A stretch of DNA of 64,000 nt from Centroberyx gerrardi. Its lineage: Eukaryota > Chordata > Actinopteri > Beryciformes > Berycidae. Each line of letters begins with the position of its first letter. The first letter of the stretch is position 1. The DNA lies in contig NC_135997.1 in assembly GCF_048128805.1 (NCBI RefSeq), positions 4,590,116 through 4,654,115 of the forward strand. The letters run 5' to 3'. Shown piece by piece: positions 1 to 39,682 of the stretch. Both the position numbers and the translations under genes were made by a program. The notes beneath the pieces were generated by a model. It ran no database searches. It saw only the letters and a program-made list of their open reading frames with translations, and had not been told where the DNA came from.

Positions 1-761
1 AGGTGCACTGCAGCCACATACTCCATGAAGTCTATCTTTCCATCCTGAGAGGAAAACAGGGGGGTAGAGAGATGGATTTAAACATTTGACACGCAATATG
101 ATATACTGAGGCTGGTCTTGACCATGCAATTGCTATTTTATCAAACTCTGCCTGCCCTAAAATCATCTTATTTTTTGCATTTGTATCTTTTGCCTCAAAT
201 ATCAACCCTTCATCACTCCTCCCAACACAGCTGATAATACATGCAGGCCCACGCCTCATCTGTCCAGAAGATGTTGAGACAATATCAAAAGGTGTCCTTC
301 ACTGTTTTCTCACTTTTCATTTAGTGATATGTATAACACTTGATCTTCTCTCTGCTGTATCTTCTTCTTTGAAGTAGGTACTTCATAGAAAAAGATAGGC
401 CTACAGCAGAAAAGAAGATAAGAACATGTGGACACTGAAGATTAAATTAAAGCTGAATTCACCTGAACAAAATTGCTATTAATTAGATATCAATAGATCA
501 ATCAGTAACTGTCAGTAGACTAACTTCCTCTAAGTATTAAGGCTGTTGCTACAATACCTTATTTGTATCAAAGGACCGAAACACGTTTTCCATGTATGCA
601 GACTCTTCTTCTGTGGACGTGCTCACTCCAAAGATTTTCCTGAATTCATGTAAGTGTAGATTGCCACTTGGACATTCACTTGCAAACTTGCGGTAGAGTT
701 CCTGAATGTTTTGAAGAGCCACTTCCTTCTCCATGCCATCGCCACCCTGTGCCTGACCCAT
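1..761 (-). CDS. GCAP-A: guanylate cyclase-activating protein, 5' part only (cut by left window edge)
   Basis: Neuronal calcium-sensor protein of the GCAP family, which activates photoreceptor membrane guanylate cyclase when calcium falls. Exon 1 coding is 558-761 (68 codons) and starts MGQAQGG, giving a glycine at position 2 suited to N-myristoylation. It carries the degenerate first EF-hand with the family motif ECPSG (residues 29-33) followed by LHEFRKIFGV. The exon ends in phase 0 at a GT donor (556-557). Exon 2 begins at 44 after an AG acceptor and runs off the edge with DGKIDFMEYVAAVHL. The join creates a canonical EF2 loop (DTNKDGKIDFME, residues 65-76). An upstream in-frame ATG exists (854), but MGQ matches the family and the sister genes. 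Exons 3-4 would lie left of position 1. The GCAP assignment is firm; the paralogue number is not. Confidence 0.93.
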
Positions 762-1599
762 AGTTCCCCACGATCGCAGAAAAAACCTATCCGAAGATGA
801 TGAAAAAACTACGAAATCTACATCTGGTACAGTAAGTAGCCTATACGTTCTCAAGCATATTCATCACAACCGCTCGACTGCACGTATCCATGGCTAGTGT
901 ACTTAAACCCTGTTGTTAACCCCACATTGTCTATTTCAAGCTAGCTGCTCAACAAATCCAATTGCCCTTTCAGTGATCTTCTCCAAATCCCTGTCAACAA
1001 TGGCTTTTCTTTCCAATATAATATAATCATTTCAGAAATCCTTTGACAAATCAAATACAGGATGCTCTGGAAAAAAAAATCTTGATTCACTCACAGCTGA
1101 GTGCCAAAGAGTTTGCATGTAGACTCTTGCTCATTTTGTTGTTTGACAGCAGTTGGGTGGGATTGCAGCGGACAGCAGGCCAGCACCTCAGGGAGCTCTG
1201 GGTTAGGGTTAGGGTTAGAGCTCTCAGGGAGATTACAGCAGGATGACGTCAAACTGCAGCCTGAACGTGGTCTTGGTTGATCCATGAGGTCTGTCTGAAG
1301 TCAGTTCACCCAGCCCTCGACTATTTACCTGCCATCAGTGGAGAATCACTTTTTAAGTAAAGCAGATGCTTATTATAAGGGTTGTAAGTGCTATTTCTGT
1401 TACCACCAAATGCATTCAACCAGATGTATGTTTTCTGTTTTTTTCTCTGATTTGTGACTGACATTATAGATCACACTAGGTTAGAGCAGAGGTATTGAAG
1501 TAAGGTGATTTTTTTCATTATTGTATTTTATTCCTTAGTTCTTACAAGGTAAAACTAAACTAAACTAAACAGTAAACATGTCGTCCACCACAAATGAGG

Positions 1600-1990
1600 C
1601 AGGCACCCCTTGGGCCAATCAGTAAAAAGATGCATCATCCCTCCAAGTTTCTTCAGAAATGGAGTGTGCAGCAGTTAAGAGATTTTGACTTTTAATTATA
1701 GCGTCCCCATCAGGCCAATCAGTGTAACGTTTTAATTGCCAGAACACAGAGACAAAATGCATCCTCCCTCCACATTTTGTCAAAATTGGACCAGTGGTGT
1801 CAAAAACGGCCTCTATAGCATCTTATTGAGGTACTCTGTCCCATGCACCTACAATTATTGACCTTTAAGTATAGCACCCCCATTTATCCAATCAGTGTCA
1901 TTTTTTAAAAGCAGACACAGTGTTTGCAGAGTGAAGATGCATCATCCCTCCAAGTTTCATCAAAATCAGATCAGTGGTGTCTGAGATATG
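1600..1990. repeat. Degenerate tandem copies of a dispersed fish repeat
   Basis: The block repeats a unit of roughly 130-180 bp: CCAATCAGT, then GATGCATCATCCCTCCAAGTT, then CAAAATCAGATCAGTGGTGT, then TTGACTTTAATTATAGC-like text. At least three diverged units are readable. I recognise this kind of sequence as widespread in fish genomes, but I cannot name the family. Confidence 0.55.
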
Positions 1991-3629
1991 ACCTGAGATA
2001 TGTTTGGCAGATGTGTGCTTTTCTCCCTCCTTTCTCTCCTCTCTTCTCCCTTCTCTCTTTCTTTAGGTGACTGCAGCTGATGGTAATTGGCCGGCTCATT
2101 AGCACCTTTGGGTGCATGCCTGATATGTTTCGAGAGACGGACAGTACTCGCTTTTGGTTGCATATTGTAGTTTTTCTTTTTCTTTTGGGTAAGGAGGCCC
2201 AGCAGTCCAGTTATGGCAGCTTTGTTTGTTTGATTGTTTGGTAGTTTAAGGGGAGACTCTGGGTCTGACGGCCCATTGCACATTGGCTCAGTAGTTTCCC
2301 CTCCTTTTGTTCATTTTGGCCAGACCTTCCGACTCTTGCTGTATTTTACTTTGAAAATAAATCGTACTTTTGTACTTCTTAACTTGCGTATAGTTACATG
2401 TTGTGTAATATTTTTGAGTGAGCCATGGCTTGAGGGTGTAACAGGGACAGAGTCAAACAGATTTTTTTTTTTTGGGCCAAAGAGTTGGCTGTCAGATTGA
2501 GTTAATACGGGATCTGAAACGGCAGCCAAACATTTATAGTGAGACAGTATTTACTGTATCGCACCCATCAAATTCACAGAAACTGGTGTTACTTCGCCTG
2601 TGATATTTTTTTTATAAATCAGGGATCATTATGCTAAACTTAAACAAATTTGCAAGAATTTACAAGGTGTGTTGTAGACTTGTTCACCCTCTGCCACTGT
2701 CCAAACTACAGATTAAACTGGATATTGGCCTTGTGAAATTTGACCAGTTTAATTCAGTTCATGCAGATTTTGAGAATTTGCTAAATTACCCTTTCATTTA
2801 TACTGCTTTGAGTTGGATGAAGCTATCTTGATGTGTACAATGTGTTCCCTGGTCACACAGTTTAGATCTGTTAACTGAACTCCTGCTGACGAACAATCAG
2901 CCAAGATTTAACAGTCTAAGCCTTTGGAGATTAAGGGTTAGTGTGAGTCTAGTTAATAAGCATTAGAAGTGGGATCCAATTGAAGGAGTGAAATGTGAAC
3001 TTCATGCCAAGCAGAAACTAAAGTCTAAATGTTAGTCCAAAGGAAGTTTACTCTAAATAGGAAGAAACTGTTCTTACTCTGCATCTTCTGCATTCTGCAA
3101 ATGCACTTGTAGAGCTGTATTCACTTTGGTAAAACATTTTTACTTTTATGAACGACACACAGTATTTGTGTAAATTGTCACCTGCTTCGCATGTTATCAG
3201 CCGATTAAATGGCCGTTATCAGTTGTCATCGGGACCATAGATTTGAGGTAGTATGGCCCTACTCCACCTCCTAATTGGATTGGCTCAGTAGGCTGATCAC
3301 CGCAGGGATTGGCTACGTTGGTCTGCGTCCACGTCACGTGACTGTCAAGTTTCTCTCTGCGGCGAAAAAAAAAAAAGGCTTACATTCCTTTTATTCTCAG
3401 TGGAAAATGCAATATTTTAAGATAGTTTCAGCATTAAAATGCGTTTTGATAACATTCATAGTGAGAAATGTGCATTTTATTTTTATAATCTTCATTCAGT
3501 GAATGTATATGATGTTTAGTTTGTTAGTTATTACGAAGATTCATTCAGGGTTTCTATCGTTGCTATGGTGGTCGCTATGCACGCTGCTATCGCTGAAACC
3601 ACAGTTGTAGTTCTTCTGGTTTGCAAAGT

Positions 3630-3975
3630 GGTCGTAAAAAGATATATCTACTGAATATATCAAATATCTAGTACAGCCGAACTAGTAATTACACTGCATC
3701 TAGGTGATCTATGTTAAGAAAAAGTAAAGATGTTGGTTTATTTCAGATATTTTAGCCAAAACAGGAGTCGAAACACGAGTCCGCCCGCAATGCTCTTCCG
3801 TGAGCCACGTCATCCAACGTGTGTGTGTGTGTGTCGACTCCTGTTTTGGCTAAAATATCTGAAATAAACCAACATCTTTACTTTTTCTTAACATAGCTCA
3901 TCTAGATGCAGTATAATTACTAGTTCGGCTGTACTAGATATTTGATATATTCAGTAGATATATCTTTTTACAACC
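3630..3975. repeat. Long inverted repeat (about 142-bp arms, 62-bp loop)
   Basis: The left arm (3630-3771) and right arm (3834-3975) are reverse complements with only a few mismatches. They run from GTAAAAAGATATATCTAC inward to ACAGGAGTCGA. The loop is GC-rich and ends in a TG repeat. It is either a foldback/MITE-type transposon or a structured element. No target duplication was obvious. Confidence 0.75.
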
Positions 3976-5731
3976 CTAGATTTACAACCCTAATTTGCAA
4001 AAACTGTGGGCTGATGTGTATCAAGCTGCATGGCGCGGCTCTAGGGAATTGTAGTTTTTAAAAAATATTTGTGTTTTTCCTAGAATTGGAAGTTGTAAAT
4101 ACTGAATTGAGAGTACACTGAGGAGTTTAAGGGGATGGTAAACACATTTGTGTAATCAGATTTTAAATATCTAATTGTTAAATAGGTGAAAATTAATTTT
4201 AACCATATTTTACCCATATTTGACAGCGCCCCCAGTTGTTGACTATACTCACATGATAGCTGAGGTCAAGAGCTCTCTATAACAGTTGGTCCCATGTCTG
4301 TAATGCTTTTTGTTGCTGAATTATAAGCCTTCAAACATAGTCCATATTCCTTTGTGAATATATCTTTACATACAGTATATCTACACTTTTTACCTTATTC
4401 ATCAGAATTTCAAAACAAAAGTCTGTGAAAGTGAAAGGTTTATAATCACTTGATGGAGTGGAACATGGGTATGAACAACATCTCACATGACAACATAATC
4501 ATGTAGGCATTGGAAAAAAACAGCAGCATGAGGCTTATATAAAAATATTTTTTAATGACAAAACAAGTTTGAAGCAAATTTGAAGCAAGATTTTGAAAAT
4601 ACAGTCAAGGTACAAAGTTTCCACCTTTCCCTTGCAACATTTCTCACTTTTCTTCAGACTTCAGACAAAAAACCAAAAAAAAACAACTTTTATTCAGATT
4701 TAGAAAATGAGTAAAATAAAAACAAATCAATGGCAATTGTTTTAGTGTTCATGTAGCATAACCATATGCAAAGCACAAAATATCAGGCTTGGTAAAGGAT
4801 TTAAAACAGTCTCATTCCTGTCAAGCATGCAGGTTTTAAGTTTAGACAATCTCATAACTGCATATTGTTGTTTTAATAATCAGCTGTTAGTTTGGTGACA
4901 CCAGCATACCAAGTAATGGGAAGTCTAATGATTTGAATCCCTGTAACTAATGAAAAGCACTAACTGGATTGATATAATAGCACAATTCAACCGTGTTTAT
5001 TTTAACAACTGTCCTTAAAGTTATTTAAGACTTCTGAACAGAAAAATATACCACAAACATATTTGTACTTAAATTAATTGTTGGAATGTCCTTGTTTATA
5101 CATACAACTAAAGGCATTTAAACTATATTTATGGTTAGAAAGCATTTTAGTATTTTCAGTATTTTGAAAATACTGAAATACAGTATTGAAATGTCAAATT
5201 AAATCAAATAAATGAGGGAATAGCATAAATGTGTAAATGTGTAAAATATGAGCGATATGATTACAGATATATATTGATTTCATGTAATACTTTAAAATAT
5301 CATTGATAACATTCAATTATTTGATTTTCATTGGGGGTTATTTTTTTTCTTACAATATCTACTATGACCATTATCTTTAAACTATAAATAAATAAAAGAA
5401 TGATAAATGTAAATACAGGATAATTGCGTTTCCTTTAACAGAAAACCTTCTCGCTGAGTAGTGTATGTCCTTTAGATAGATGCTTGTTTCTGCTGCATGT
5501 CAACACAGACTATAGGCATGCAGCAAGGACCAGCGACAGTCAAACTGTCAAAACCACAACTGAAGCCATGGAAAAGTGCACTGTGCTCGACTCCAAACCA
5601 TCACAAGGAGCCGACACGGAGACACAGGCAAACCTTTTAAACCCAAGGCGTGTCGTTTTGTGTCAAAAGACAACACTGCGTTGTCAGCTGCAGACAAAAG
5701 CTTGTGGGTGGTGAACCCAGTAAGAAAAGAT

Positions 5732-8480
5732 TCAAGGTAGTTTCCCACAGTTCTGGATGACCCAGCTGGTGGCGTTGACATCCAGCTTGAGCAGGTTCAT
5801 GACCCATTCATCCTTCTGAGCGCCCTCCATGAACTCAGTCAGGGATATCTGGCCTGTGGGGCACAACACACACATTTAAATAAGAGAAAACACATGCCAC
5901 TTTCAAATTAGATCTATTTCTCAAGTGACTCTACATTGATGACTTTGCATGTGACAAAAAGGGAGAGGAAAATGATAATCACAACTGTAAAATGAGCTTG
6001 TTCTTCAAAATAAACAGAGTGATTTCTAGAACTTAGATAATAATTACTCAAAATTTCATTATATTTCTGTGGGCAAGTCAATTTTTGTCAAGTCAATATG
6101 AGATGATATAAAATTGCTTGTCACCTGAAATCTCCCTGCCAACCTATGAAAATGTTTTTTTTTTTTAACCCTTCTGCTCATGACAAATAAAAAAATAGTG
6201 ATGGTGATTTTTGATTTATAACTTATGATCAGTGGAAGGATGATGAGCGCTGTCAGCTAGTAAACACTAAACAACTGTTAAAGATGATAATCTAGGACCT
6301 TATGTAAGACTCCAGTGACCTACAGCTGAGTTTTGACCTACAGTGTTCCCCAGTGGACCAACACAGTCTAATAAAATTTTGTGAAAAGAGCATGAATTCT
6401 TCATAATATGTGGGCACAAATTATGTGAAGATTACGTTCCTCCACCTTGACTTGGATTATATGACAATAGCACAAACTGGACACGCCATTTTCACCTGTT
6501 CATCATGTGAAAAGGTTAGCTAACAGTTAAATTAGTCAAGTAAAACAACTTTGGTTAAGGTTTGGGTTAAGTTTTAGGCATCTAACACTTTGGTTAAGGG
6601 TTAGGGTTAGTTTTAGGCTTATCCATTAACAGTGGATCATTTGTTTTCTGATGGTTGAGTAGATATTACAAAAAAAACAAAAACAAATAACTAATTAAAT
6701 ATTACTTCCAAAACACACAGAAATTACCATTGCAAAAATACCAATGCAACATAACATTAACGTTCCCATACCTATCAAATTAGACAAAACTTTACTTTCT
6801 AGCAATTTTCTGTCGTTGGAAACATCATCACAAAAGGACAAAGCATTTTATATTCCATTATATTTTGTGTAACTTCTGTGGTTTGCCAACAGACTTACCA
6901 TCGCTATTCCGGTCAACCAGCTCAAAGATTCTGTCACAGGCTTCATTAGGTGTCATAGTAATGTCACTCCGCTGGAGCTTGATTTTGTAAATTATCTGTT
7001 GGGGAATACATGAAATTTATCTGTATTGCATAAATGTAGACAGTTGTAGGAAAATAAGTCTGAACTTCTTCAATAAGACATTAGCAGGATTAAATTTTGT
7101 TTTAAACTTTTTAGATGACAAAGACGTCACAGTAAATCAGCATCGGTTCAATTTACCCTTACACTACATACTTGAAACCGTCTTTGACTGTTGGGCACAA
7201 TTACACAATACCATGGGATATTGATATTAAAATGTTTTAATTATAGTATGGAGGAAAGACTCCAAGCTTATATGAAAGACAGTAATGGGTTACCAAAATT
7301 ATGGAGACTCTGGAACAAAGTTTTAAGCGGAGTAGGTATTAGTGAAAACAACTGCATAATGATAGTAACCCACTGAACTATTTTATGTTGATGTCTAAAT
7401 GGTTATAGACGTCTAGGTTAAAATTTGGCTACATATAAGACCAAAATAAAGCATTATGTTGTACATAAGGACTTCTCTTTTTGATGTTTACAGCTGTTTA
7501 TGCATTGTCAATGCATGGCAATAATGTATTTACTGCTTGGTCTAAAACTGGGCTATACATAGCGAAAAAAAGATCCTGGGCTATATAAAGCATACTGTAG
7601 ATGCAATGTTGAAATGGCGTCTAGTGCTCAGGGTTTGGGTTAGTTGAGTGAGTGGGCTAATTTTAGGTTTCTAAAGTTAGAGGCTTAGGGTGAAGATGTT
7701 CTTATTTCAAGAATAACACACAGACCATTGACTCTTCATCCAATAACGTGCAAGCCTCCTATACGTGACCCCTGCCCTTAAGCCAGTCGCTGGGACAGTA
7801 ATAGCTACCCTCATATAATCTGGCTTGAGAGCATCTGTGTTATGAAACCTAGTGCCCTTAAAAAGTTCACATGTAACTTGATTATATTCTGCCCAGTTCA
7901 AATGGGTCCTATTTCCTACAAAACTGCTGCTTTCTACTCCATGAGTGATAAATTACAAAAGGAATTCACAAAAAAATAAATGTCTCCAAATAAATGAAAC
8001 CTGAAACAAAAATCTGAACCAGGTCCTTCTTACCCTTATGAGATTTTTCACCTCCTGCCTGTCCAACTTGCCGTTTCCGTCCTTGTCATATATCTTGAAG
8101 GACCATTTCAGTCTATCTTCAAGATTCCCCCGCAGCACCAAATGAAGTGCAGCCACATACTCCAGGAAATCCAGTGTATTATCCTACAAACAATGACCCA
8201 TCTCGTTATTCAATTAATTTCCAATTTTAACAATTAATAACAATTTAATTCTATTCTGAGATATTGCAATAGTGGCTTCATTTACCTGATTTGTGTCAAA
8301 GGAGCGGAATATTTTTTCAATGTAGAGGGTCTCCTCCTCCGAGCTGCTTGGTACTCCGAAGATCCTCTTGAACTCGTGTAAGTGCAGAGCACCGCTCGGA
8401 CACTCCTTCATGAAAATGATGCACAGATCCTGAATTTGTGCTAAATCCATCTCCTCGCTGTGGCTTTCTTCCTGCCCCAT
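5732..8480 (-). CDS. GCAP-B: guanylate cyclase-activating protein, complete, 187 aa
   Basis: Four coding exons joined from splice sites: 8286-8480, 8034-8183, 6899-6995 and 5732-5853 (564 nt, 187 aa plus stop). The protein starts MGQEES, a good myristoylation context (G2, S6). The first EF-hand is degenerate around ECPSG (26-30). Calcium-type loops are seen at EF2 (62-73, [12 protein letters not shown]), EF3 (98-109, [12 protein letters not shown]) and EF4 (143-154, DRNSDGQISLTE), each with the terminal Glu. The C-terminus is short ([10 protein letters not shown]) and lacks the Arg/Lys-rich tail of GCAP2. Before ECPSG it reads DLCIIF, where the other three copies have a Tyr in place of the Cys. 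Intron 1 is only 102 bp. The expected role is calcium-dependent control of retinal guanylate cyclase in photoreceptor outer segments. Paralogue identity among the extra teleost GCAPs is not resolved. Confidence 0.95.
6366..6650 (+). repeat. Dispersed repeat R1, copy 1 (in GCAP-B intron 3)
   Basis: It shares the order AATTTTGTGAAAAGAGCATGAA, ACAAATTATGTGAAGATTACG, CTCCACC, TGACAATAGCACAAACTGGA, CATTTTCACCTGTT, GGTTAGCTAAC and GGTTAGGGTTAG with blocks at 17335 and 59815. The copies are diverged, which indicates an old interspersed family. Confidence 0.65.
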
Positions 8481-9031
8481 GGCCTCTGACAAAAAATCCT
8501 TTGAAGATGTATTAAATTGGTGAATCAGAAAGTTTGGCTACTGTGTGCGGGCTACCGAAGCATCCGCTCACACAGTCCCATCAAACTGAACTAAACAGCT
8601 TTGCACTTCTGTCCAGTGTGGCTGACTTAGTGGGCAGAGTGAACACGGCACCTTATTAAGAAGTCAATCTTATTAACTTGTTAATCACTTGATCTTTCTC
8701 AAGTCCAGGCAGGTCTGATAATCTGGCATCGCTGCCCTCAGATCAGTGCCAAAACAGTAGAAATACCTAGCACCTGTTTGTAGGAGGCTATTTTAACAGA
8801 AAATTACAGATTACAGATTAAATTACAGAAATCATTCAATATTAATATTTGTAAATTATGACAGTTAAAATAGCCAGCATCAATATTATGTGGTTAATCA
8901 ATCCATTTTCATTTGAAGATACATTATTCTATAAATACAAAACAAGTCTAAATTTGGGGTGCGTTTACCTTAGAAGACCTGACCTGCCTAAATTGAGGCA
9001 AGTGGAAGTAAATAGCTCATTTCTATTATTA

Positions 9032-11402: not shown

Positions 11403-11842
11403 CTAGACAATGCCAAACTGGGCCAGGTCACTCAGCTCCATGTCACCAAACGCCTCCCAGGGGCAGACGACCGCAGAGTCTGGAGGGGAGAAAGATAGAG
11501 GAATGAGTTAGGACTGAACATCTATCTGACATGAAAGCTGCTTACTGTGACAATTCACCCTCACCTCCAAGACCCTCCATCCCTGGGACGTCATTGTCAA
11601 ACCTATGAAAAAAAGAAGAAACTGAAGTGAAATTGTATATTCTGTTCAGTATGGTTTGGGAATATGGCGATGGGTGTACAGTTGTTGGACGAATAGCATG
11701 ATGTGTGTGTGAGAGAGAGAGATGTTTGCCAGGCTCACCCCTTCTGTCCAGCTTTGGGAGCCTTGCTCTTGAACTGCCTGGCCTCCTTCTGCTTGAACTT
11801 GGGAGGAGCGGGCTTGACGCCTTCTGCTGCTGCTGCGTTCAT
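11403..11842 (-). CDS. PDE6g-1: short PDE6 inhibitory gamma-type subunit, 72 aa
   Basis: Three coding exons: 11739-11842, 11565-11602 and 11403-11479 (219 nt, 72 aa). Introns are 136 and 85 bp, with GT-AG ends and the same phases as the two sister genes. The protein has an Ala-rich start, a polybasic segment ([18 protein letters not shown], about 13-30) that in PDE6 gamma binds the catalytic subunits and transducin, then [13 protein letters not shown], and the inhibitory C-terminus with CPWEAF and LAQFGIV. In the family this tail plugs the PDE6 active site until transducin-alpha GTP removes it. It is shorter than the usual 83-87 aa of PDE6G/PDE6H. The position of the RQT-type Thr is Ala21. 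Candidate lineages are PDE6H or the extra non-mammalian PDE6I branch; the sequence alone does not decide. Confidence 0.93.
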
Positions 11843-13314
11843 CTTTGAGACTTTTTGTTACAAAGAAAGAAACATGTTTTTGTCACTCATTATGAACGTC
11901 TCAACCTGGATAATCTATTGAAACTGGAGATGGACAACACAACCCCCCCACCCCCACCTCCACCCAGCCCTCTTTGAGCTCCTGTCACTCACACTTTATC
12001 CTCTTAGGGGTTTGCAGACTTCTTTCTTTATGCAATTGCAATTTTTAACCAGGTCAGTCACCTATCCTGATCTAACCAGTCTTCTCATCTTCTCACTTAT
12101 CATAAACAGTCACCATGGTAATCCTGTTTGTGTTAATCCTGAAATCATTGGTCGGCCCTAGGAGTCACAAGGTGAGTCTTAGGTGAGTCAAGGATCAGTG
12201 TGCATCACTTGAGGATCAAAATCTACACCAAAACAAGGTCTCAGTGATCCATCTCATGTTCTGGGATGAGGCCGGATTATAACAAGGATTATGTTCTATT
12301 TTTCAGTGTTAATATTATGCAAATTTAGCTGCTGAACATCCCTGTTGGGTCAGAAATAAACTGAACTAGGTCCTTCTGTGTGGACAGGTCACAGGGTGAA
12401 AATTCAAAGATGATTTTTACAGCATTTCTTCTCCATTGCACAGGAGACATAGAAAACAAAGGGGGGGAAAGGAGATGACATCTGACAAAGACCAAAAGCT
12501 GGAATGGATAACCTAACTTTAAATTGATTCTGAATCACATACTCATCAGTAACAGTTTGTTCTAAAATGTTATTTGTTGTAAATATTGCAAAATATATTA
12601 TGTACAGTCATTAAAAGTATTACATCTTCAACTTTTGACTTCACATTTGATGTATACGAAAGCCATACCTGCAGCAAATTAAGCATTACAATAACATGGA
12701 GGCAAAATTGTTTGTTGACACTTAGCTAGCAGGAAATACAATATGTGGTTGGTAGAGATGCTCCAGTTAGAGACACCAGATACTGTTTTGGTTTCTCGAA
12801 CATTTCTCTTACAAAGTGATGAGAATGAGCCATCCCACCAACTGCTCTCATGTGTCGTGTGAGTTTAAATAGATCAGACAGAAGATGCAAGCAAAGTATA
12901 AACCATGGAAACCAGGTACTTCAGAGTGCCATAGATATAGATTTTCTAGAAACAGGTGATTATTGACCAAAAAGAGTATGGTAATATTTAAAGCTCCATC
13001 GAGGACTTTTATGGCTACAAACTAATCTAGATTAAAAGACACCAAAGGTGCTATTTCTTTGCTATTATATTATTATCTGGACCTTTTAACTGCAGACTGG
13101 TGTTGAGACTCACATTCACAAATTGTATTTAAATACAATGAAGCTATGCAAATAACTTCAATGAGACAAAGTGAATTGGCAAATGTACAGATACAAAAGA
13201 AATAATATTAACAAAAGCTTTCTTCCCTGTCCTTACACTTGCTGTAGGACAATTCCAAAAAGTAACTAAGTGCAAAATTGAGCTCACCTATCTCTATCAG
13301 AAAAATGTACTCAC

Positions 13315-17334: not shown

Positions 17335-17610
17335 AAGTCTCACAAAATTCTGTGAAATGAGCACGAAGTTATGTGAACATTACGATTCTCCACCACAAAT
17401 TGGATTGGATTAAATGACAATAGCACAAATAGGATGCACCATTTTCACCTGTTTGTCACATGAAAAGGTTAGCTAACTGTGATGTTTAGGCTGCTGAAAC
17501 AGTTTATGGTAAGGTATTGGTCATGGATAAATAAGAATAAATTGCTAAAAATTCAAACCTCACTCACAGTAGAAAACAAGTATTTGCATTTTAACACATC
17601 ATGCTCATTT
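17335..17610 (+). repeat. Dispersed repeat R1, copy 2 (in the PDE6g-2 leader intron)
   Basis: It matches copy 1 through TCTGTGAAATGAGCACGAA, TTATGTGAACATTACG, TTCTCCACCAC, TGACAATAGCACAAATAGGA, CATTTTCACCTGTT and GGTTAGCTAACTG. It lies between the non-coding exon and first coding exon of PDE6g-2. Confidence 0.65.
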
Positions 17611-17864: not shown

Positions 17865-18854
17865 ATGAATGCAGCAGCAGAAGGCACCAAGGCCGCTCCT
17901 CCTAAATTCAAGCAGAAGGAGACCAGGCAGTTCAAGAGCAAGGCTCCCAAAGCTGGGCAGAAGGGGTGAGCCTCCCACATTCATTTGGAAAACAACATAA
18001 AGATATAGCACATACAGTTATTATCCAAACATTCAAAAGGCTGAAGGTAATTAATTCAAAAATGTATGTATTTGTGTATTTAATACAACAGGTTTGACAA
18101 TGACGTACCGGGGATGGAGGGTCTTGGAGGTATGAATGGTTTTCCAGTTGAATTTGTAGATCGAGGGCTTGGAGCCAGAAGGATGTAACTGGCATTTTGG
18201 GGTGAAAATAAGATCAAGTCAATCAATATATCAAGTAAAAGCTCTTGAGAAGATTTGTTTAGTAGTGTAAGAATCTCTATATAAGATTATCATTATCAAA
18301 ATGTACAACAGAAGAAAGTCTCTGGCCAGTTTACCCAAAGAAGGCAATGGAGCACATAGTTAAAACTGTATTTATTTGGTGCAAGGACTAACATTTTGAT
18401 GCAACTGCAAACAGTTAAACAGTACTGGTGCCAGCAGAGAAAGTTTGAATAGCCTCCCTATCCCATGCAGCAAGCACTTCATAGGCTCTAGAGGGTGGGA
18501 GGGGAACTTTTCCTAGACCAACACCATGACAGCACTCCATGGTTACAATTTGCAAGAAGAAAAAAAAATGTAACACATGTTGATATTTACAGCAGTTGAT
18601 CAATAGGTCCACTTTTTGGTTTTGCTCTCCTGTAAAGTTTGCCAAGACCTACTTACACCCCTCTGGCTCCAAACCCTTGAGATGTGTTTGAATAACCACA
18701 TTATTTCTGTCTCTTACTTAGTTAATCTCACATTAATCCCTTTCTCTGGCTCACTACACTGTTTTTCTCTCCTCCAGACTCTGCGGTCATCTGCCCCTGG
18801 GAGGCGTTTGGTGACATGGAGCTGAGTGACCTGGCTCAGTTTGGCATTGTCTAG
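17865..18854 (+). CDS. PDE6g-2: short PDE6 inhibitory gamma-type subunit, 71 aa
   Basis: Three coding exons on the plus strand: 17865-17965, 18092-18129 and 18778-18854 (216 nt, 71 aa). An AG acceptor at 17861-17862 lies just before the ATG, so a non-coding exon precedes it; its TATA box is at 16202 and its donor after 16284. The protein has one Ala fewer than its sisters ([10 protein letters not shown]). The basic segment [15 protein letters not shown] follows, then [13 protein letters not shown] and the C-terminus [11 protein letters not shown] to LAQFGIV. It alone keeps Thr (residue 20) in the KxTRQF context, equivalent to a PDE6 gamma phosphorylation site. It is divergent from PDE6g-1 and convergent with PDE6g-3. 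A polyadenylation signal lies 392 bp after the stop. Its role is the cGMP phosphodiesterase inhibitory subunit of photoreceptors, inferred from homology. Confidence 0.93.
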
Positions 18855-22397: not shown

Positions 22398-22804
22398 CTA
22401 GACAATGCCAAACTGGGCCAGGTCACTCAGCTCCATGTCACCAAAAGCCTCCCAGGGGCAGACGACCGCAGAGTCTGGAGAGAAACCATGGCTTATTGGA
22501 ATTTGTACTTACATGTTATGTTTTAATCATTTGGAGTTATAGCTTGAATTGATAGTTACCTCCAAGGCCCTCCATCCCTGGAACGTCATTGCCAAATCTA
22601 AGGAAAGAACAGAGAGTGATAATGAGGCATGACATCTCATTTAACCTTGCAATTTGATTGGGATCAAATGATTGGGATTGTTTTTTTTTTTTCTGCTCAC
22701 CCCTTCTGTCCAGCTTTGGGAGCCTTGCTCTTGAACTGCCTGGACTCCTTCTGCTTGAACTTGGGAGGAGCGGGCTTGACGCCTTCTGCTGCTGCTGCGT
22801 TCAT
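22398..22804 (-). CDS. PDE6g-3: short PDE6 inhibitory gamma-type subunit, 72 aa
   Basis: Three coding exons: 22701-22804, 22560-22597 and 22398-22474 (219 nt, 72 aa). Introns are 103 and 85 bp. The first coding exon differs from PDE6g-1 at a single base (Ser21 for Ala21). The last differs at one silent base. The 38-nt middle exon differs at four bases and encodes [13 protein letters not shown], where the Gly (not Asp) is the usual PDE6G/H residue. The C-terminal CPWEAF and LAQFGIV are intact. A CTTAG acceptor just before the ATG indicates an upstream non-coding exon, placed at about 24199-24318 behind a TATA box at 24342-24350. Function is inferred as for its two sisters. The gene appears intact and has no sign of being a pseudogene. 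Confidence 0.93.
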
Positions 22805-29179: not shown

Positions 29180-29268
29180 TGTGAGTGTGCGTTTATGTAT
29201 TGTGTGTCTTTTTATGCATCTGGCTGCCACAAGAATTTCCCCTCGGGGATAATAAAGTTGAATTGAAC
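29180..29268 (+). mobile_element. LINE 3'-end fragment
   Basis: CTGGCTGCCACAAGAATTT then CCCCTCGGGGATAATAAAG is a characteristic fish LINE tail with a small CCCTCGGGG hairpin and an AATAAAG end. Confidence 0.6.
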
Positions 29269-29583: not shown

Positions 29584-32500
29584 TTATGAGTCCGTGGGAG
29601 AATCTTTGGGACTCATGAGTTTTCTGTCGCACAAGTACCTCTGGACCCAACCACAGGGATTGACGTCAAGACGCAGGAAGTTCTGCAGCCACGGGTCCCG
29701 CTGAGCGCCCTGGACGAACTCATCCAGCGTGATCTGACCTGCAGGACGAGGAGAACAGATCTGAGTGTCAGTAGACTTATTTACCATCAAATAATGAGGA
29801 AACCTGCCTGAGGATTTCGTTGGTTTTTGAACACGCCATCAACGCTCGTCACGCGTCAACTTACCATCACCGTTGGCGTCGACCCCTTGAAAGATGCGGT
29901 CACACACCTGCTCGGGTGTGAGGCTCTCTGTGCCTGTCTCATCAGACACACAGCCCTTCTTTATCCTGTAGATTATCTGAGAGAATAAAAAAAAATAGAT
30001 AAAAGGTTAATCATGTTGATACGTTTTGTGGTTTCCAGTATGTGATTCTGATTTTGACCTCCATCACTGAAGTTCACAAATACTGTATCAACGTAAGTGT
30101 TGCACCAATTATTTCATACAATATCATGTATTAAGTAATCTATGGGATAATGTATCCATTCATAATCATTATGATTAGAAAAAGTCAAAAGATTGTCAAG
30201 CGCAACAGTTTGCTGATACATGAGTATTTTTATGAGTGCTTTTTTAATACTTATAATAATAATAAACTTTATTTGTATAGCACCTTTCATACAGGAAATG
30301 CAGCTCAAAGTGCTTTACAACAAAGAAATTACATGCACCAAGTGCTTCACATAAAATTTGATAATGATAGTGAGAATAAGATAAAGAGGAGAATAGAATA
30401 CATAAAATGCATCTTCACATGACAATAGACATAGAATGAGCATAACATAAGATGGAAAATAAAACCCACTGAATAATAATAGTAAAAATATGAGGAATGC
30501 ATAACATAAGATGGAAAATAAAACCCACTGAAAAAGTGCAGCAGTGCATCTATAGGTAGTGTGTTCCATAACTTTGGGGCGTAATTGACAAAGGCTGCAT
30601 CCCCGATTTTCTTTCGGCTGTTGCTGGGAACCTCCAATAAACCAGCAGCAGATGATCGCAGTGTTCTTGAAGGCAGGTAGTGAACAAGGGAGTTAGCAGT
30701 GTAGCTTGGTCCTAGCCCATTAAAGGCTTTGTATATAAGGAGGAGGACCTTAAAATCAATTCTAAATGTTACAGGAAGCCAGTGTAGAGCAGCTAAAACT
30801 GGACTAATGTGCTCTTTCTTTAAGAAAGGAGTTTATTTGCACTGAAACTACCTTTTCAAGTATCTTACTAATGAATGGAAGGTTGGATATCGACCTATAG
30901 CTTGTCAGCGCATTACCATCTAGGTTGGGTTTCTTCAGGACATGACTTGAAACACTATCGAACACCCACATAAAAAAATGCTGTAGGTACAGGGTCAATA
31001 CATGAGGTGGAGGAGTTACACTCGGTGACAGTCTTGCAAAGCTCAGTTAATGTAATACAAGTTAATTTTCCCATGGTTACATCTTTTTTACAGGGTTTGC
31101 TGAGGTCATCTGTGTTGACATCAGCAGCAATGCTGGCTCTAACTGAAGTTATTTTGTTATTGAAGAACAATGCAAGTTCTTCACAATTTGATGCAGAGGA
31201 CTGCGGACGGGTGGGGGCAGTGTTGAGCTGGTCAATAGTGGAGAATAATATTCTAGAGTTTCCAGCATTCTCTGTAATAATCTTGGTAAGTAATCCTTTC
31301 TTGCTAGACGTATTGCTTTGTTATAGACAGTCATGGCTTCTTTGTATATATTACAGTGAACTGTGAGCCTGGTTTTCCTCCATTTTCTTTCAGCTGCTCG
31401 ACAGATTCTCTTAATCTCATTAACACTGTTATTGTTTAACCATGGGGAGATTCTGTCAGCTGACCTCTTTTTAACCTTTAGTGGAGCAACAGTATTTAAA
31501 GCAGATGACAAGGTATTGTTGAAATTTTCAACCATGTCATTTAAAGAGCAGTCAATGCTGTATGACTCAAATGATTTCATAATATTAGAGAACTTTGCTT
31601 CAGCCTTGCTATCTAGGAATCTCTTTTGAACCAAATATTCCCTTTTTTAGTCTTTGTTAAGATTAGGCTGGCATCTTGAACCAAACATACATCACTTCAA
31701 ATTATTATATTACAATTGGAAACAACAACATGATTTTAATATAAATATTTTGGGCCATGATCCACCAGCTGAAAAAAGTTAACACAGCTAATATGTTAAA
31801 AGTGGCCACAAAAAAATTGGCTTCTGAAAATGTATATTTACATATAAATTAGAAGAAAAAACAGTAAAGTATAGTGTATAACTAATGGTGGTAATATATT
31901 TCCTACAAACATTTCAGTTGTACAGCCTGCTGACCCTAGCTTCTTATGCCACTAATTGCATTATGAGAGGTCCCAGATTGTAACACTGCATCAGTTAAAT
32001 ATTTACACTAAGCTGGGCTTGCATGGCTTAAACTAATTGATTAGGCTTACACAGTGTTATACAACAAGAAGCAGTCATACTGTGTGCAGTAAAGTCATGG
32101 CCAGGTCAATAAAGGCCCAAATTAACATTGTTAGCTACTGTATATTTATGAAGGAACTGATAGCAACAGCAAAAAGTAGCTCACTGACACCTAATGCGCA
32201 AAATGAACAAGCTTATCGCAAGCTTATCATTTCCATTTCAATCATCAGTTTTAGTGGTCATGCTTATAAAGATGGCAGTTTAACATCATTCCCACAGTGC
32301 AATGTGCACTTACACTTAATTTCACTATGAGGAAACCTCTATAAAACATGTTTGAATATGTTTTTTGTTTAAATCATATTTTACCAATACACAGGACATG
32401 ATTTAACTATCTCCTCTGCTGCTTGAATCTATATAAAAGATTCAGATGATGAAATCACTTTGATTTACTGTCAGTCGTGAGTCAATCTTTTGAAAAACCC

Positions 32501-33675
32501 ACTGAAATTGAAGGTGTACCTCAAGGCAAACTCTTTGTTTTACTCATCCTGGCTAACAGCTTTCTTTAAATCAAGGCTCTTACATTTACAATCTTCCTGA
32601 GTTCACCTCTGTCCAGACGGCCGTTGTCATCACTGTCAAACACCTTGAAGGACCACCGCAGTTTATCTTCAAGCCTTCCTCGAAGTACAAGATTCAGTGC
32701 AGCCACATACTCTATGAAGTCCATTGTATTGTCCTGAAACCAGGAAAACGTTATTTGTGAAATCCTCCCATACAATCAGAAACACTTGGTAATTCTTTAG
32801 AATACTTTTCAATGATAATGACTATTCAGGAGGATGTATTATTTTTATAACTCAATTAGCTTGTGTTAAAGCTTTAGATTGGATTACTAATGAGTATCTT
32901 ATCATACATTGTAAATCAAACTTTAAAAATACAGAAGTTGTTTCAGTTAAACTTTGTGTGTTAAACTCGATGTGCTTTACATTTAAAAAATAGAAACATA
33001 TGTACAGAGATATACATAAAAAAACACATTGATAATACAAGACCTAATCATAGGCTATAGTAAAAAGAAATGCTTTCAGTTTGCTTTTAAAAGAAATTAG
33101 CATTGGGGCACAGTGTGTGAGTGTGAGTGTGAGTGTGATAGGCCAGATGTTAACTAATGAGTAATCTCCATGTTAGATTGCTCACATTCATAAGTGATTA
33201 AGTAGGCAATAAACTGTAATTCTTCTTCAAACCTTATCAGAATCATTGTCCACTTGTTTACTACAAACCGACGATACAATTTGAAAATACAAATAAACAC
33301 CTTTGGGAAAACAATATTTTGAAAGTGTAAACGAAGATATATGTGCAAATGATTGTAAAAAAAAAAGATATTGTAAACTATCAAAAAAAGTCCAAATGAA
33401 ATTGTTGCTCATATTGCCTGGGACTTTAATTTGAAGATTCAAATATTTTCCCTCATGGTGGAATTGATACCTACCTGATTCATATCAAATGCCCGGAAGA
33501 TGCTGTCCATGTACTCCGATTCCGGCGTTCCACTTTGCACTCCAAACATCCTCTTGAACTCGTGCAAATACAAAGATCCACTGGGACACTCCGTGATAAA
33601 CGATTTGTAAAGGTCCTGGATGCTGTTCAACTCCAGTTCCTCATCCTGCATCGGAAGTTGCTGATTTTGACCCAT
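29584..33675 (-). CDS. GCAP-C: guanylate cyclase-activating protein, complete, 205 aa
   Basis: Four coding exons: 33475-33675, 32584-32733, 29865-29976 and 29584-29738 (618 nt, 205 aa). All boundaries are GT-AG, with the same phases as GCAP-B and GCAP-D (0, 0, 1). It begins MGQNQQ with Gly2 for myristoylation. Features are ECPSG at 29-33 in the degenerate EF1, EF2 at 64-75 ([12 protein letters not shown]), EF3 at 100-111 ([12 protein letters not shown]) and EF4 at 150-161 (DANGDGQITLDE). Exon 3 is the longest of the three complete copies because of an insertion between KKG and LTPEQ. The C-terminus is extended (ending SPKDSPTDS) and has no GCAP2-like basic tail. Intron 2 is 2.6 kb and contains a decayed L2-like LINE in the same orientation. 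Expected role as for the other GCAPs. Exact orthology is unresolved. Confidence 0.95.
30255..31640 (-). mobile_element. Decayed L2-like LINE in GCAP-C intron 2
   Basis: Read on the minus strand, an endonuclease-to-reverse-transcriptase linker segment ([17 protein letters not shown]-like text, 31149-31634) is followed by the RT start (SYRPISNLPF-like, here [17 protein letters not shown], about 30820-30900). Then comes the post-RT segment ([18 protein letters not shown], about 30730-30800; APKLWNTLP, about 30560), and a tail complementary to AAACTTTATTTGTATAGCACC at 30265-30290. Frameshifts and stops break the frame. The core of the RT domain is missing between FLKERAH and LAALHWLP. The copy is dead. 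Confidence 0.85.
30440..30532. repeat. 59-bp tandem duplication inside the LINE tail
   Basis: The phrase GCATAACATAAGATGGAAA, then ATAAAACCCACTGAA, occurs at about 30440 and again at about 30499. Confidence 0.8.
32975..33105 (-). mobile_element. LINE/SINE 3' fragment in GCAP-C intron 1
   Basis: GTGCTTTACATTTAAAAAAT, then ATGCTTTCAGTTTGCTTTTAAAAG, resembles the reverse-oriented 3' region of L2-type elements. It is short and diverged. Confidence 0.4.
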
Positions 33676-35000
33676 GTTGAATCCAGATTACATCGGTGCA
33701 AAATCCGGGGACAAAAAGTCTTGTGTGCAATATGTGAAAAAATAATGGTAAAGATACTCTAGTACAGCAATATCCCGAAGGTAAATTGCATTCAGAAGCT
33801 TGTTTTTAGTCTTTTCGTCCGTCTCATTGCTGCTGTTGAAGGTCCCATCAGCTCAGAGGTCAAGAGTTGTGAGTCCTGATTCGAGTGCAGCACCTGACTC
33901 ATGCCTGACCCTAACCAACACACTTATTTTTAGCCAAAGGCCTCTGCAATCTGAGTTTAAGGCTGTAATCCACATACATGATCCCATCTTGAACTTTTAG
34001 TGACCCAGGGTCAGTAGTGCCTTTCATATCCAAGTGGCAAATCATGTCGTTTCATTTTCACATTTTTCCAACCTGTTTTCTTACTGAAATGACAACATTA
34101 ACTTGTAACAGTGACAAGACAGAGAGACTATAGATAAAAGCAATCCTATCCTTAGAGGTATAGAGGTACATGTATAATAAAACATAAATAAAATCTCACC
34201 AGGTAAATTAATCAGTAGATGTTTGGGAAGTCAGTGGGTATAGATTTAATTCACTTTAATCCCTGAACAAATCATTCATTGGCTCTTCTCTAACTTGGCA
34301 GATGTTCACTAAGCCATTGTAGGTCAATTCTTACTATACTCTTGGCAAGTTAAATTATATGCTTAGCCAACTGGACTGTGTTTAATCAACCTGGCAGACA
34401 ACAGTGCAATTTAATCTGTTTTAACTGAAAATTACACTATTTGGTGTGTTTTGGGATGTGATTTGTGTGAATTCAGGAGTTATATTTTGGATGGGAAAGC
34501 ACAGCGAGCGCTAGAACAGAGCCACTCAATACTTTGAGTACCACTCTGATTTCCTTAAAACTGTGTCTTTCTATGTTAAAGAAAACATGGCATGTAGAGC
34601 TGCATTGGTCTGAAGCCTGCAACACACAAGCTTAGACCCATATATTGGTTTGCCAGTTTATTGTGCTGATATTGGCCTTTTATTAAATATTGGATATAGG
34701 CCAGTCAGTGTCTTTAATTTCTAGTATAGTGGAAGTAATGCAGTTTGTTTGATTACTGTTGTGTTTTGGGAGAGACTGTGAACTATCTAAAGATTTCCTT
34801 TAAAGGAAATAATTGTAAAATGTCTGGGTTTAATGCTGAATACTCAACCCAGCTACTGAAAGTTGCTGGCCTAAAAAAAACACAACTCCAAATTATTGCT
34901 CTTGATGATATTGGCAGCAAATGTGGAGCCCCAAGCAGTATCACAATGGATCAATCAAACGATAATAGAGTGTTAAAAAGATGTCTAAGATGTGTAAGCG

Positions 35001-35309
35001 TGACGGCCCCGGGCCATCTGCCCTCCCATAGTTGTCTCTCCTTGCACTTCCTGCCCAGTTTTCCCTCCCTCAGGTGCATGGCCATCACCTGGGTGGAGCT
35101 TACAGAGGGTGGACTTCTCACCCATTCTCACTCTCCCTCTCCTGCTCCCTTTGGTTGTTTGGGCTTTTTCTTTTCCTGCACGCAACAACACCCCTTCACC
35201 ATGTTGTTCACCTTGTTTTGCTTTGTATTCTAATAAAAATTTGGTTAATCATACCTTTTACCGTGTGGACTCCCTCCTTTGCTTATGATCTTAACGAGCG
35301 ATCATAACA
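35001..35309 (+). mobile_element. Possible solo LTR
   Basis: The block starts TGACGGCCCCGGGCC and ends GATCATAACA, contains pyrimidine-rich sequence and AATAAA near 35232, and resembles fish Gypsy-type LTRs. I could not find a clean target duplication, so the boundaries are uncertain. Confidence 0.4.
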
Positions 35310-36031
35310 CGAAGAAACCGAGCCAATTATTTTGCTAATGACTTTGTCATTTTATTGCAAACTAGGTGAAAATGTTTTTCTTTCAGCTCAAAGTATAATC
35401 ATCACTTGATGCCATATGTATATTCAATGATAGTTTGTTCAGTTGGAACCATTTGGAATGAAGTGAAGTGAAGATACATTTTACTGCAACAATATTAAGT
35501 TGTATAAAAATAACAGGAAGCGTTAATGAGAATTTAAAAGATGAAAGGAGAACAAACAATGAAATATTTTTAGGAGACACTATTTTTAAATTTTAATCTT
35601 GATGAAAGTTGGCATCAGACACTGTTAAATACTTAATGGAAGGACAGTAGTTCACCTTTAGGTGGAGACAAAGCCCACAGGCTTAAAATAAGCCTCACTG
35701 CAGAACCTCCAGTCAGCCTGTTTCATGTTTCCTGACTGACATGGTGTAAATCCCACAAACCCCACAATTTGGGATGGGAGCAGGCATCACAGGCCCTCTA
35801 GATACACAACGGGCCCCCTACTGGTCAGATGTGAATTACTTATAAGTGTGGTTTGTAAAGTATGTTGCACTAACATGCTGCATTCTTTTTTAAGGGGAAG
35901 TGTCTTTATATATGTCAAACTCAAGCAATGTATCACGGTATCATGTTTTTTTTTTTTTTTTTTATGTCATTGCATTAACATACACTTTTGATCATTCAAC
36001 TTTATTACAAAATTACACTGAATGAAATGAC

Positions 36032-36109
36032 ACTGATGTATATCGATTCTCTACTGACATTGTACAATTAAATGTTGTACAATTTCAGTAGAGAATCGAT
36101 ATGCATCAG
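36032..36109. repeat. Hairpin: about 36-bp arms, 7-nt loop
   Basis: ACTGATGTATATCGATTCTC on to TTGTACAA (ends 36067) pairs with TTGTACAA on to GAGAATCGATATGCATCAGT (from 36075), with a few mismatches. It lies downstream of GCAP-D. Confidence 0.8.
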
Positions 36110-36905
36110 TCAGTAGTCAGTGAAATAGACTTAGTACACATGGGTCAAACCTCGTCGTCTGTTTTTTATTTGTTATTATTTTCTTGATGATTGTATTCAT
36201 AATAGTTTAAACCTGCCGTGAATGATGCTCACATACATTACAGATATTTCTATTTCTAGTGGTCAGGTAAAAAATAAAGGGATTATTTTAAGGCATGTGC
36301 TTTAATTCAAGATAGTCTATTCAATATGCATTATAACAATATAGTTCTGTGTCGTCCCAGAAATATCAAGATTTAACCATATATATTTTATGATTAATTA
36401 CTTGAAAATAAAACAAAACAAAAATGAAAATCACTACAAAAAAAATCTGAAAATCAGATATTCGATACATCCACTATTTACATATTGACACTTTATGATA
36501 AGAAGGCTGTGATGTGAGCAAACAGCAGTGGAATATATCTGTAGTTGCTTAAAATTAGAGTAAATTATAGTAAAAAATATAGTAAATGCATTAAGCAAAC
36601 ACTTTTCATTCTTTTTTTCAATCTAAAAAGAGAAAAGGAGAAAGGAGCTTTATATTTTCTGTCCATTCGTCTGTTCTTTTGATGCAGTAAGAGCTCCTCA
36701 GAACTAAGCTGCCTTTACCAAAAGCCAAAGGAATAGCCCATCCTGACTGAACTGGCTCTATTCAGTCTGAATGTGAAACTGCATGTGCAAAATGAAGCCA
36801 GTTTTTAGGATGATGTACACATAAACATCTTGGAGATACAATCTTTTTGCCCTTGACTGTTTTCTCTTTGTCCACAAGGAAAGGCTTTCGATGGCAAATG
36901 TTGTT

Positions 36906-39682
36906 TCAGAAGTGTGCACTCTTCCTCCTCTGCTCCAGCACCCATCCATAGGGGTTCATGTCCAGTTTTAACATGTTCAGCACCCAGGGGTCTTGCTGTG
37001 CCCCTTTAATGAACTCATTCATGTTAATATGACCTGTGGAACAAAAACAGTGAGGAACAGGATTAAAACTATCTGCAGATATAGCAATCTGAGATTCCTT
37101 GTGTCCACACTGGGTCCCAAAGTGCTTTCATTGCGTTGAATACAGGACAAGTGAAAAGATTAAACGCTTACCGTCTCCATCTGTGTCTACGGCTTGTAAT
37201 ATTCGATCAACAACCTCATCTACTGTAAGCTGTGTTTCATCCGTGTCTTTCTTTGTGCCTTTCTTTATTCGGTAGATGCTCTAGGAGAAACAAAATGCAG
37301 ACATGTATAGCATTTCATGTTAGAAATTGTTTCAGCATGCATGTTAGTGTACTGTTAGTCGGAGGAGAAAGTACTGTACCTATTTCTTTTTATTTGTAAG
37401 TACACATACAGTACTAAACTACAGCATACATTACCTCTTTACTTTCTGCACTTTTGGATCACTTTTACTTCGGTTAGAATACAAATATTGTAATCTGTTC
37501 ATAGAAATCATGTGGTTGTTGATGTCTGATCAACCACTTTAAAAATGAAAAAAATCAGAGCATATAACTGAACAACTGACCATTTTACTGTAGCTAACTG
37601 TAGCTACTGTAGTAAGTTCTAGAAGTTAAAATGATGTGTTTTCTAGCACTATAATTTAACAACATTATGTTTACCATGTATTTTAACTGTTGCTACCTTT
37701 GATACATAAATACATTTAATATCACATAACTCAGGGCTTTTATGTTTAATTTTGAATGGATGATTTACTTAACAGAGTACTAATCTATGAGTTCATTTTG
37801 CAGGTTTGTTTTAATCCAGTGTTTTCATAGATTACAAATGTAAACAATGCCTCAAAATGCTTGTAAAATCATGATAAAAATTGTACTTTGTATATTATGT
37901 TGTGTGTGTGTTGTTATTTAGCTTACGTTATGCTAACCTTACTTGGAATAGCTAGTCACAGAACCGCTAGCTGTGACATATATAACATGCATAGCAGTAT
38001 TAGCTTGCTGTTAGCAAAATATTTGCTTTAACTCGAAAGTGGCATCTGAATTCAGCGGATCCAGTGCCATTTGAGAGAGAAATGTGTGTAGATAAAAATG
38101 TACAAGTTTAAAATGCTATCTTAAATCTCAGTCTGTGACAGGGACCATCATATGAAACACCATTCATTTTCTCCATAGGGAAATTTCCTTTGATCCGGAA
38201 GTCTATATTTGGGCAAAGGTTGGTGCTCTGTGTTACGTCAGACTTCCAAGGCAACTACATGCTACAGTTATCTATTAAACCTTTAAAGACAGTCAGTTCA
38301 TGACAAGTGGCTCTGAACAAAAGGATATGTGGGCTAGAGTTAAGTGAGTTGACCAGTGCGAGTGTGCATCATGTTGGGACAAAGCTCAACAACTAACTGC
38401 TCAATGGCAGCAAGTGTTAACAAAGAATTTAAGAAGAGGACAATATAAAAAAAAGAAGACAGTGATGAAAGATGATTGTAGTGGAGCAGATTTTATCACC
38501 ATGCTTGCTTTAACTTAAAGAGATCCTTGTGGTTCCTCTGAAGAAGCACACATGCTAAAAATAATTGGTTTTGGGTTGTTTTCATTTTAAATTGGCCAAA
38601 TGTATTTTTGTGAGGTGCCTTATTGGTAATTTTTCACCTCAAGGGGTCTTTACAACTGAAGTATCAAGTCATTTTTAATTCCAGGCAGTCTTCAAGTACA
38701 AGATTTGTCCGCTCCTTTGGGCTGATCCATTATAGATGCATTACCAAGTATGCACTTGCCCTTGGTTTTTGCACATTTTGTTGTGCTACTAAATTATTTT
38801 CCAAAGGATTTTCTTTGGCCTGAGAGCTCCAAAAATGTATGTGAGGGCATTAAATAAAAAAAAAAAGAAAGAAAATGACCCCCCTTGTTTCAACTGGGGA
38901 TAATTGACTCAACATTTCATGTTAGTCTGACTTCTTCCTTAGGCTGGGTTCAGGAGTTCTGAACAATCTTATGCCTTCAAAGTTGTCCTGTGTTCTTTGC
39001 TAGTATAGCAAGGTCATTCGCATGACATTTCTGACTTGATTATTAGCTAAATATTTGTTAAAAATATACTGCTTATACTAAGAATTATACAGAAGATGCA
39101 GCTGGTCTTTCATTCCCTTTAAGAAATGTTAACTCCTAACAGTTTTCCCTAAGGGATTCCCCTTTAACAAGATAAGCATTACATTCTCCATCCAATGCTC
39201 ACAAGATCTTGCTTTGCATTTGTCTTCTGTATGGACTTACATCAATTATTGACCGCAGTTCACTCCTGTCCACATAGCCATTGCTGTCTTTGTCATACAC
39301 CTTAAACGACCAGCGCAGTTTATGCTCCAAGTCTCCCCGGAAAACAAGATTCAGCGCTGCTACAAACTCAAGGAAATCGATCGTATTATCCTGCAGGATA
39401 GGATGAACGAGAACAATTAGATCACATTTTCAAATATCTTGGTAAAGATGTATGCAAAGGCTGTAAAGGCAATTACTTTCTCACCCCATTTTTGTCAAAA
39501 GCTCGAAACATGCATTCTGCATAATCAGATACTTCCCCTGTTGGGTCTACACCAAAAAAACGCTTGAACTCATGAAGAAAAAGTACTCCACTTGGACACT
39601 CCAAGACAAACTTTTTGTACATATCCTGAAGCGCTTTGACATCAATCTCATCGCTCTTCTCTGTTTGCTGCGTCTGTCCCAT
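36906..39682 (-). CDS. GCAP-D: guanylate cyclase-activating protein, GCAP2-like, complete, 194 aa
   Basis: Four coding exons: 39485-39682, 39241-39390, 37172-37280 and 36906-37033 (585 nt, 194 aa). It starts [12 protein letters not shown] is at 28-32, followed by [14 protein letters not shown] loops are EF2 63-74 ([12 protein letters not shown]), EF3 99-110 ([12 protein letters not shown]) and EF4 148-159 (DTDGDGHINMNE), all with acidic positions 1, 3 or 5 and Glu12. The C-terminus ends EQRRKSAHF, close to the basic RRKSA tail known from vertebrate GCAP2. Against that, the linker after KKG is short and the Trp that precedes Tyr in GCAP1/2 (WYKKF) is Met here. I read it as a GCAP2-related paralogue rather than guca1b itself. 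A TATA-like box and homeodomain-type sites lie about 110-180 bp upstream of the start. Confidence 0.95.

Follow-up and report, generated by a model that had tools for sequence, protein, structure and literature searches.

Why do genes for proteins that act on opposite sides of photoreceptor cyclic GMP (cGMP) control lie together in a fish genome, and did they multiply together? Guanylate cyclase-activating proteins (GCAPs) raise the activity of retinal guanylate cyclase at low calcium, and PDE6-gamma keeps PDE6 blocked until its own removal by transducin; with both kinds of gene within 40 kb, the locus offers a natural test of whether opposing cGMP regulators can share control elements. It lies in a stretch of 64,000 nucleotides of the Centroberyx gerrardi genome (G000:C1:4590116-4654115, hereafter the window), which contains no N and comes from the single assembly analysed (778.9 Mb, 278 contigs). 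Positions 1-39682 of the window hold seven intact genes, four for GCAPs and three for PDE6-gamma. What is new here is that the PDE6-gamma coding exons are near-identical while their introns and flanks are mostly at the level of shuffled sequence, both in this trio and in a second PDE6-gamma array on contig C3. We consider it somewhat probable that the locus is a teleost, probably cone-related, cGMP-control cluster that arose by two separate local expansions and was shaped by gene conversion limited to the PDE6-gamma exons. The genes follow each other block-wise, with PDE6-gamma a, b and c between the GCAP-A, GCAP-B and GCAP-C, GCAP-D blocks (window positions):

1..761, minus strand: GCAP-A (GCAP2-like), exon 1 at 558-761, exon 2 from 44 downwards; the gene continues to -2861
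5732..8480, minus strand: GCAP-B, exons 8286-8480, 8034-8183, 6899-6995 and 5732-5853; 187 amino acids
11403..11842, minus strand: PDE6-gamma a, exons 11739-11842, 11565-11602 and 11403-11479; 72 amino acids; PF04868 at 111.5 bits
17865..18854, plus strand: PDE6-gamma b, inverted, exons 17865-17965, 18092-18129 and 18778-18854; 71 amino acids; PF04868 at 115 bits
22398..22804, minus strand: PDE6-gamma c, exons 22701-22804, 22560-22597 and 22398-22474; 72 amino acids; PF04868 at 114.8 bits
29584..33675, minus strand: GCAP-C, exons 33475-33675, 32584-32733, 29865-29976 and 29584-29738; 205 amino acids
36906..39682, minus strand: GCAP-D, exons 39485-39682, 39241-39390, 37172-37280 and 36906-37033; 194 amino acids; best PDB match GCAP2 (1jba)

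The initial annotation had described four GCAP genes with identical exon phases and three PDE6-gamma genes placed between the second and third of them, and both descriptions are correct. Each GCAP gene is on the minus strand and has four coding exons with open frames and intron phases 0,0,1. In GCAP-A, exon 2 extends past the left edge of the window, and exons 3-4 are outside it, at -1927 to -2861; completed with upstream contig sequence, the model encodes 191 amino acids and ends at C1:4587254. Position 39682, given earlier as the end coordinate, is the start codon of GCAP-D. All four proteins have an MG start (for myristoylation), CPSG in EF1 and EF-hands 2-4 that match the loop pattern; their Pfam matches are to EF-hand families and two related models (EH, SPARC calcium-binding), and GCAP-D, the one member searched against solved structures, matched 1jba with an E value of 1.1e-72. 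The three PDE6-gamma proteins exceed the PF04868 cut-off of 25 bits several-fold and carry the C-terminal CPWEAF motif and an AQFGIV end, features (CPWEAF and a GI-I/V end) that we take to serve PDE6 inhibition; the closest solved structure to PDE6-gamma a is cone P-gamma (9cxg, E 4.7e-25). Their genes have three coding exons and two introns, at places identical to those of the PDE6-gamma gene on C20. Beyond these seven genes, no GCAP or PDE6-gamma exon was found in C1:4570116-4664115, where the off-cluster matches are weak (E 0.1-0.6).

Within the trio the coding sequences agree at 213/219 positions between a and c (97.3%), 204/216 between a and b (94.4%) and 200/216 between b and c (92.6%). 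Excluding the 648-base intron of b, the introns and flanks are only 0.58-0.71 identical, against shuffle averages of 0.56-0.62, and after trimming of 20 bases from intron ends and 40 from flanks, with intron 2 pairs involving copy b left out, eight of the 10 comparisons fall within the shuffles. Because trimming brings most comparisons to shuffle level, the similarity appears to cluster next to the exons, a pattern that conversion tracts would produce. The synonymous distance (dS) inside the trio is 0.13-0.32, whereas the same codons stand at ~1 from PDE6G on C20 and at 1.97 to saturation from PDE6H; values this large are near saturation and unreliable as distances, but synonymous sites in these genes can evidently change, and constraint alone is therefore an unlikely cause of the low values. 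We rejected the low dS as a date for a recent triplication, since introns and flanks, once the exon edges are set aside, mostly align no better than shuffles. Between a and c, the 38-base exon 2 is alike at 34/38 positions, compared with 179/181 for exons 1 and 3 (Fisher p 0.009), an excess of differences that would be expected if short exons convert poorly.

A larger array occupies C3:7616159-7650872, where ten intact PDE6H-type genes, mostly alternating in strand, lie within 35 kb and encode one identical protein of 73 amino acids. Copies 2-8 share introns (0.95-1.00) and most flanks, so that a recent inverted amplification is likely. The array falls into three groups (copy 1; copies 2-8; copies 9-10) that differ from each other at 2-5 of 219 coding bases, all of them third positions in the four pairs inspected, and their introns and flanks are 0.55-0.76 alike between groups. 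After trimming, 10 of the 12 comparisons (from four of the 45 copy pairs) are within the shuffles, and both flanks of pair 1-9 are above them. That the exon/intron contrast recurs at two PDE6-gamma clusters of the same genome suggests that a vision gene undergoes gene conversion, and conversion confined to exons would be the simplest cause of the contrast; should this hold, age estimates and orthology assignments for fish PDE6-gamma genes would be misled. Our literature search, with supplements and most subscription papers outside its scope, found no description of a GCAP/PDE6-gamma cluster or of PDE6-gamma gene conversion in fish.

In a GCAP protein tree of 11 sequences, which left out C11 (GCAP3-like) and C4 (GCIP-like), included the C6 GCAP3 with a partial exon 3 and used the other genomic GCAPs cut at their last matched residue, the four window GCAPs form a single clade (96/97) with the internal groups C+A+B (98/96) and A+B (87/87). 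Together with GCAP2 of this genome and mammalian GCAP2 they make up a six-member group (89/97). GCAP-D is nearest to GCAP2 on C14 (60% identity), and dS is at least 1.6 or not computable for all six pairs of window GCAPs. The chromosomal order A, B, then C, D is compatible with stepwise tandem growth, given the tree order D, then C, then A+B. The set most likely represents the GCAP2-A/2-B group of bony fish. We take zebrafish guca1e and guca1e.2 to be equivalent to GCAP7. Zebrafish GCAP7 is GCAP2-B and is described as cone-specific (PMC6170504), and guca1e is enriched in ultraviolet cones and guca1e.2 in other cones (PMC8405809). With the GCAP2-A and GCAP2-B genes of bony fish the window set shares membership of a GCAP2-like clade and local duplication: the two genes lie head-to-tail on linkage group (LG) 27 of gar and ~5 Mb apart in medaka (PMC6170504). 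It differs from them in having four tandem copies interrupted by three PDE6-gamma genes; the available parts of the literature on GCAP2-A and GCAP2-B do not mention a PDE6-gamma neighbour. In GCAP-A, B, C and D, the Trp that GCAP1/2 carry in the WYKKF segment of the EF1 region is replaced by Leu, Leu, Leu and Met, respectively. Cyclase binding of these proteins may differ because this changed site is in EF1, part of the cyclase-binding face of GCAPs (PMC8329130).

The affinity of the PDE6-gamma trio is harder to establish. The genome contains at least 17 PDE6-gamma genes (34 exon matches): the three in the window, ten on C3 (7.616-7.651 Mb), three singles on C7 and one on C20. In the protein tree, where one C3 protein represents the ten identical ones, the trio groups with the PDE6H proteins of this genome (C7a at C7:11.04 Mb, and C3) at 100/99, and constraining it to join C20, C7b, C7c and the rod sequence is rejected (approximately unbiased test, p-AU 0.011). 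On this basis we did not accept the trio as rod-type PDE6G, although the synonymous distance leans that way. It shares the C-terminal GDMELSDLA and SKAPK-GQKG segments and intron position 1 with PDE6H of this genome; unlike teleost PDE6H (pde6ha, pde6hb), of which local duplicates exist (PMC4906994), it retains the last coding intron, is one codon short before exon 3, encodes 71-72 amino acids and is surrounded by GCAP genes. The last coding intron of PDE6H was lost in the investigated teleosts except zebrafish and cave tetra, that is, in the non-ostariophysan ones (PMC4906994). Here it is kept in all three trio copies and gone from C7a and all ten C3 copies, and the codon that directly precedes exon 3 is absent from the three trio copies and kept in all five other types. 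Because the retained intron and the one-codon deletion are common to all three, the trio likely has one founder, and the sequences suggest that this founder either branched off before the other PDE6H genes lost the intron or escaped the loss. Like PDE6I of gar, zebrafish, cave tetra and frog, the trio might be a lineage of inhibitory subunits additional to G and H, but by protein it joins PDE6H, in a comparison made without a PDE6I sequence. Two further three-exon PDE6-gamma genes lie on C7, at 7180420-7181908 and 19997624-19998050, the latter 0.9 Mb from an SSTR2-like gene (73% identity). Either may be PDE6I, which among the teleosts studied was found in zebrafish and cave tetra only (PMC4906994). 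Within the trio, the a and c proteins differ at two positions only, one in exon 1 and the other the second residue encoded by exon 2, and b differs at a few more positions; the exon 1 site, aligned to what we take to be Thr35 of mammalian PDE6-gamma, is Ala in a, Thr in b and Ser in c.

The account that we favour would thus run as follows: a GCAP2-A/2-B-type gene gave rise to four copies by tandem duplication; a PDE6H-type gene, moved as DNA with both introns intact to between GCAP-C and GCAP-B, gave rise to three copies; and gene conversion limited to coding exons kept these three nearly identical. Several points weigh against it. The name GCAP2-A/2-B is based on the clade and the literature rather than on fish reference sequences, and we infer the direction in which PDE6-gamma moved. 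At synonymous sites the trio is closer to PDE6G on C20 (0.94-1.08) than to PDE6H. The PDE6-gamma protein tree has 87 columns and five of its seven inner forks are open; the mammalian cone sequence sits with the rod-type ones, and the tree therefore divides fish PDE6H-like sequences from all others, not cone from rod. In the published view, the family yields no reliable phylogenetic signal (PMC4906994). As to conversion, seven of the 12 untrimmed intron and flank comparisons outscore all 100 shuffles, and the two a-c flanks, even when trimmed, score above 196 and 197 of 200 shuffles, so the trio may be a younger duplication with fast-decaying introns. The exon 2 effect is clear in a-c only, the other pairs showing no such clear excess. 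Finally, dS between C7a and C3 is only ~0.5, and some synonymous constraint is therefore likely.

It seems improbable to us, all the same, that strong synonymous constraint rather than gene conversion keeps the exons alike while introns drift. C7a and C3 PDE6H, which resemble genome-duplication partners, do differ at only 14/64 third positions; yet the codons that are so close inside the trio run from dS ~1 to saturation against other types, and the trio introns are mostly at shuffle level. Still less credit can be given to the proposal of the initial annotation that an ancestral neighbouring pair of GCAP and PDE6-gamma genes expanded together in this lineage, which we regard as very improbable. 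Its premise of local multiplication stands for both families, which are adjacent and multi-copy here, and the divergence of introns and flanks would allow the trio to be as old as the GCAP array. Nevertheless, the order of the genes is by block and no further exon of either family lies nearby, and the 20 repeats of at least 80 bases in C1:4570116-4664115 link GCAP with GCAP, PDE6-gamma with PDE6-gamma or non-coding sequence, none of them being a mixed gene unit. One non-coding repeat, shared by a GCAP-B intron (6359-6569) and a site ~290 bases upstream of PDE6-gamma b (17358-17575), was considered as a trace of joint duplication and rejected: a third copy lies at 59811-60093, and the repeat is dispersed, with at least 41 genomic matches. 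The PDE6-gammas are 94-97% identical, compared with 56-58% at best among GCAP-A, B and C. The contrast with published locations that had been drawn also stands for gar, in which these genes for the opposite sides of cGMP control are on different linkage groups, PDE6G, H and I on LG10, 12 and 13, near SSTR2, 3 and 5 (PMC4906994), and GCAP2-A and B on LG27 (PMC6170504). The two families most likely multiplied separately, one expansion inside the other.

If the expansions were separate, the trio might nonetheless not descend from a moved PDE6H copy but be an old PDE6-gamma lineage of its own that has always kept its intron, derived for instance from a whole-genome duplication. Both retained introns, the one-codon deletion, the synonymous distance and the intron loss in other teleost PDE6H speak for this, but the 100/99 protein grouping does not, and we hold it to be rather unlikely. 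Nor does the neighbourhood favour it: no SSTR2-like match of at least 37% identity is on C1 among the 59 matches listed (121 of 865 candidates scored), and receptors that we take to be UTS2R-like lie 1.5 Mb from PDE6H on C3 and C7. Alternatively, a PDE6-gamma copy may by plain coincidence have landed beside the GCAPs, so that the adjacency has no regulatory meaning, a reading that overlaps with ours except for shared control. Many pathway pairs exist, and some must be adjacent by chance. Other GCAP genes are on C14 (GCAP2), C24 and C5 (GCAP1-like) and C6 and C11 (GCAP3-like, as we infer), in addition to the GCIP-like gene, and the window locus is the only one of the six PDE6-gamma loci found with a GCAP nearby; a second such neighbourhood was sought and rejected, there being no GCAP match near the C3, C7 or C20 loci. 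Random placement of six GCAP loci (C4 left out) and six PDE6-gamma loci over 778.9 Mb would be expected to bring 0.0037 pairs to within 40 kb of each other and 0.0003 to within 3 kb, by a post hoc estimate. That figure tells against coincidence, as do the constraint on the proteins (nonsynonymous distance well below dS) and the motif content of the upstream regions. TAATCC, presumably a CRX/OTX-type site, occurs 10 times in the 1 kb upstream of the seven genes, where 4.3 are expected from the window density (random placements, p 0.0135). Six of these sites are at the PDE6-gammas and two each at GCAP-C and GCAP-D; GCAP-A and GCAP-B have none within 1 kb, which favours coincidence. Overall, we count coincidence as a serious possibility, one that we nonetheless lean against. 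The densest of the upstream regions is:

11843..12842, minus strand: upstream region of PDE6-gamma a (1 kb), in which four TAATCC sites lie 277-444 bases from the ATG

The TAATCC excess hints at photoreceptor control of the cluster, and co-regulation of its GCAPs and PDE6-gammas in a shared photoreceptor regulatory domain is plausible. By analogy with the known families, the most likely role of these GCAPs is to activate retinal guanylate cyclase as calcium drops, and that of the PDE6-gammas is to inhibit cone PDE6 until they are removed by transducin. Cone expression would agree with the cone staining of pde6ha/hb (PMC4906994). A more far-reaching idea, which we put forward tentatively and judge unlikely in full, is that of a cone module: a PDE6-gamma lineage of its own, which kept the ancestral introns, would lie in a GCAP array under one regulatory domain, stimulators of synthesis and brakes on breakdown would be set together for each cone type, and exon-limited conversion would keep the brakes uniform while the GCAPs diversify.

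As for the surroundings of the cluster, codon bias gave no convincing coding exon to the right of GCAP-D as far as 104 kb, bar two doubtful stretches near 75 kb, in a scan that is weak by nature and missed several known short GCAP exons. On the left, the GCAP array is adjoined by a large coiled-coil gene on the minus strand (-29977 to -9974, ~1600 open codons), which we presume to be giantin/GOLGB1-like.

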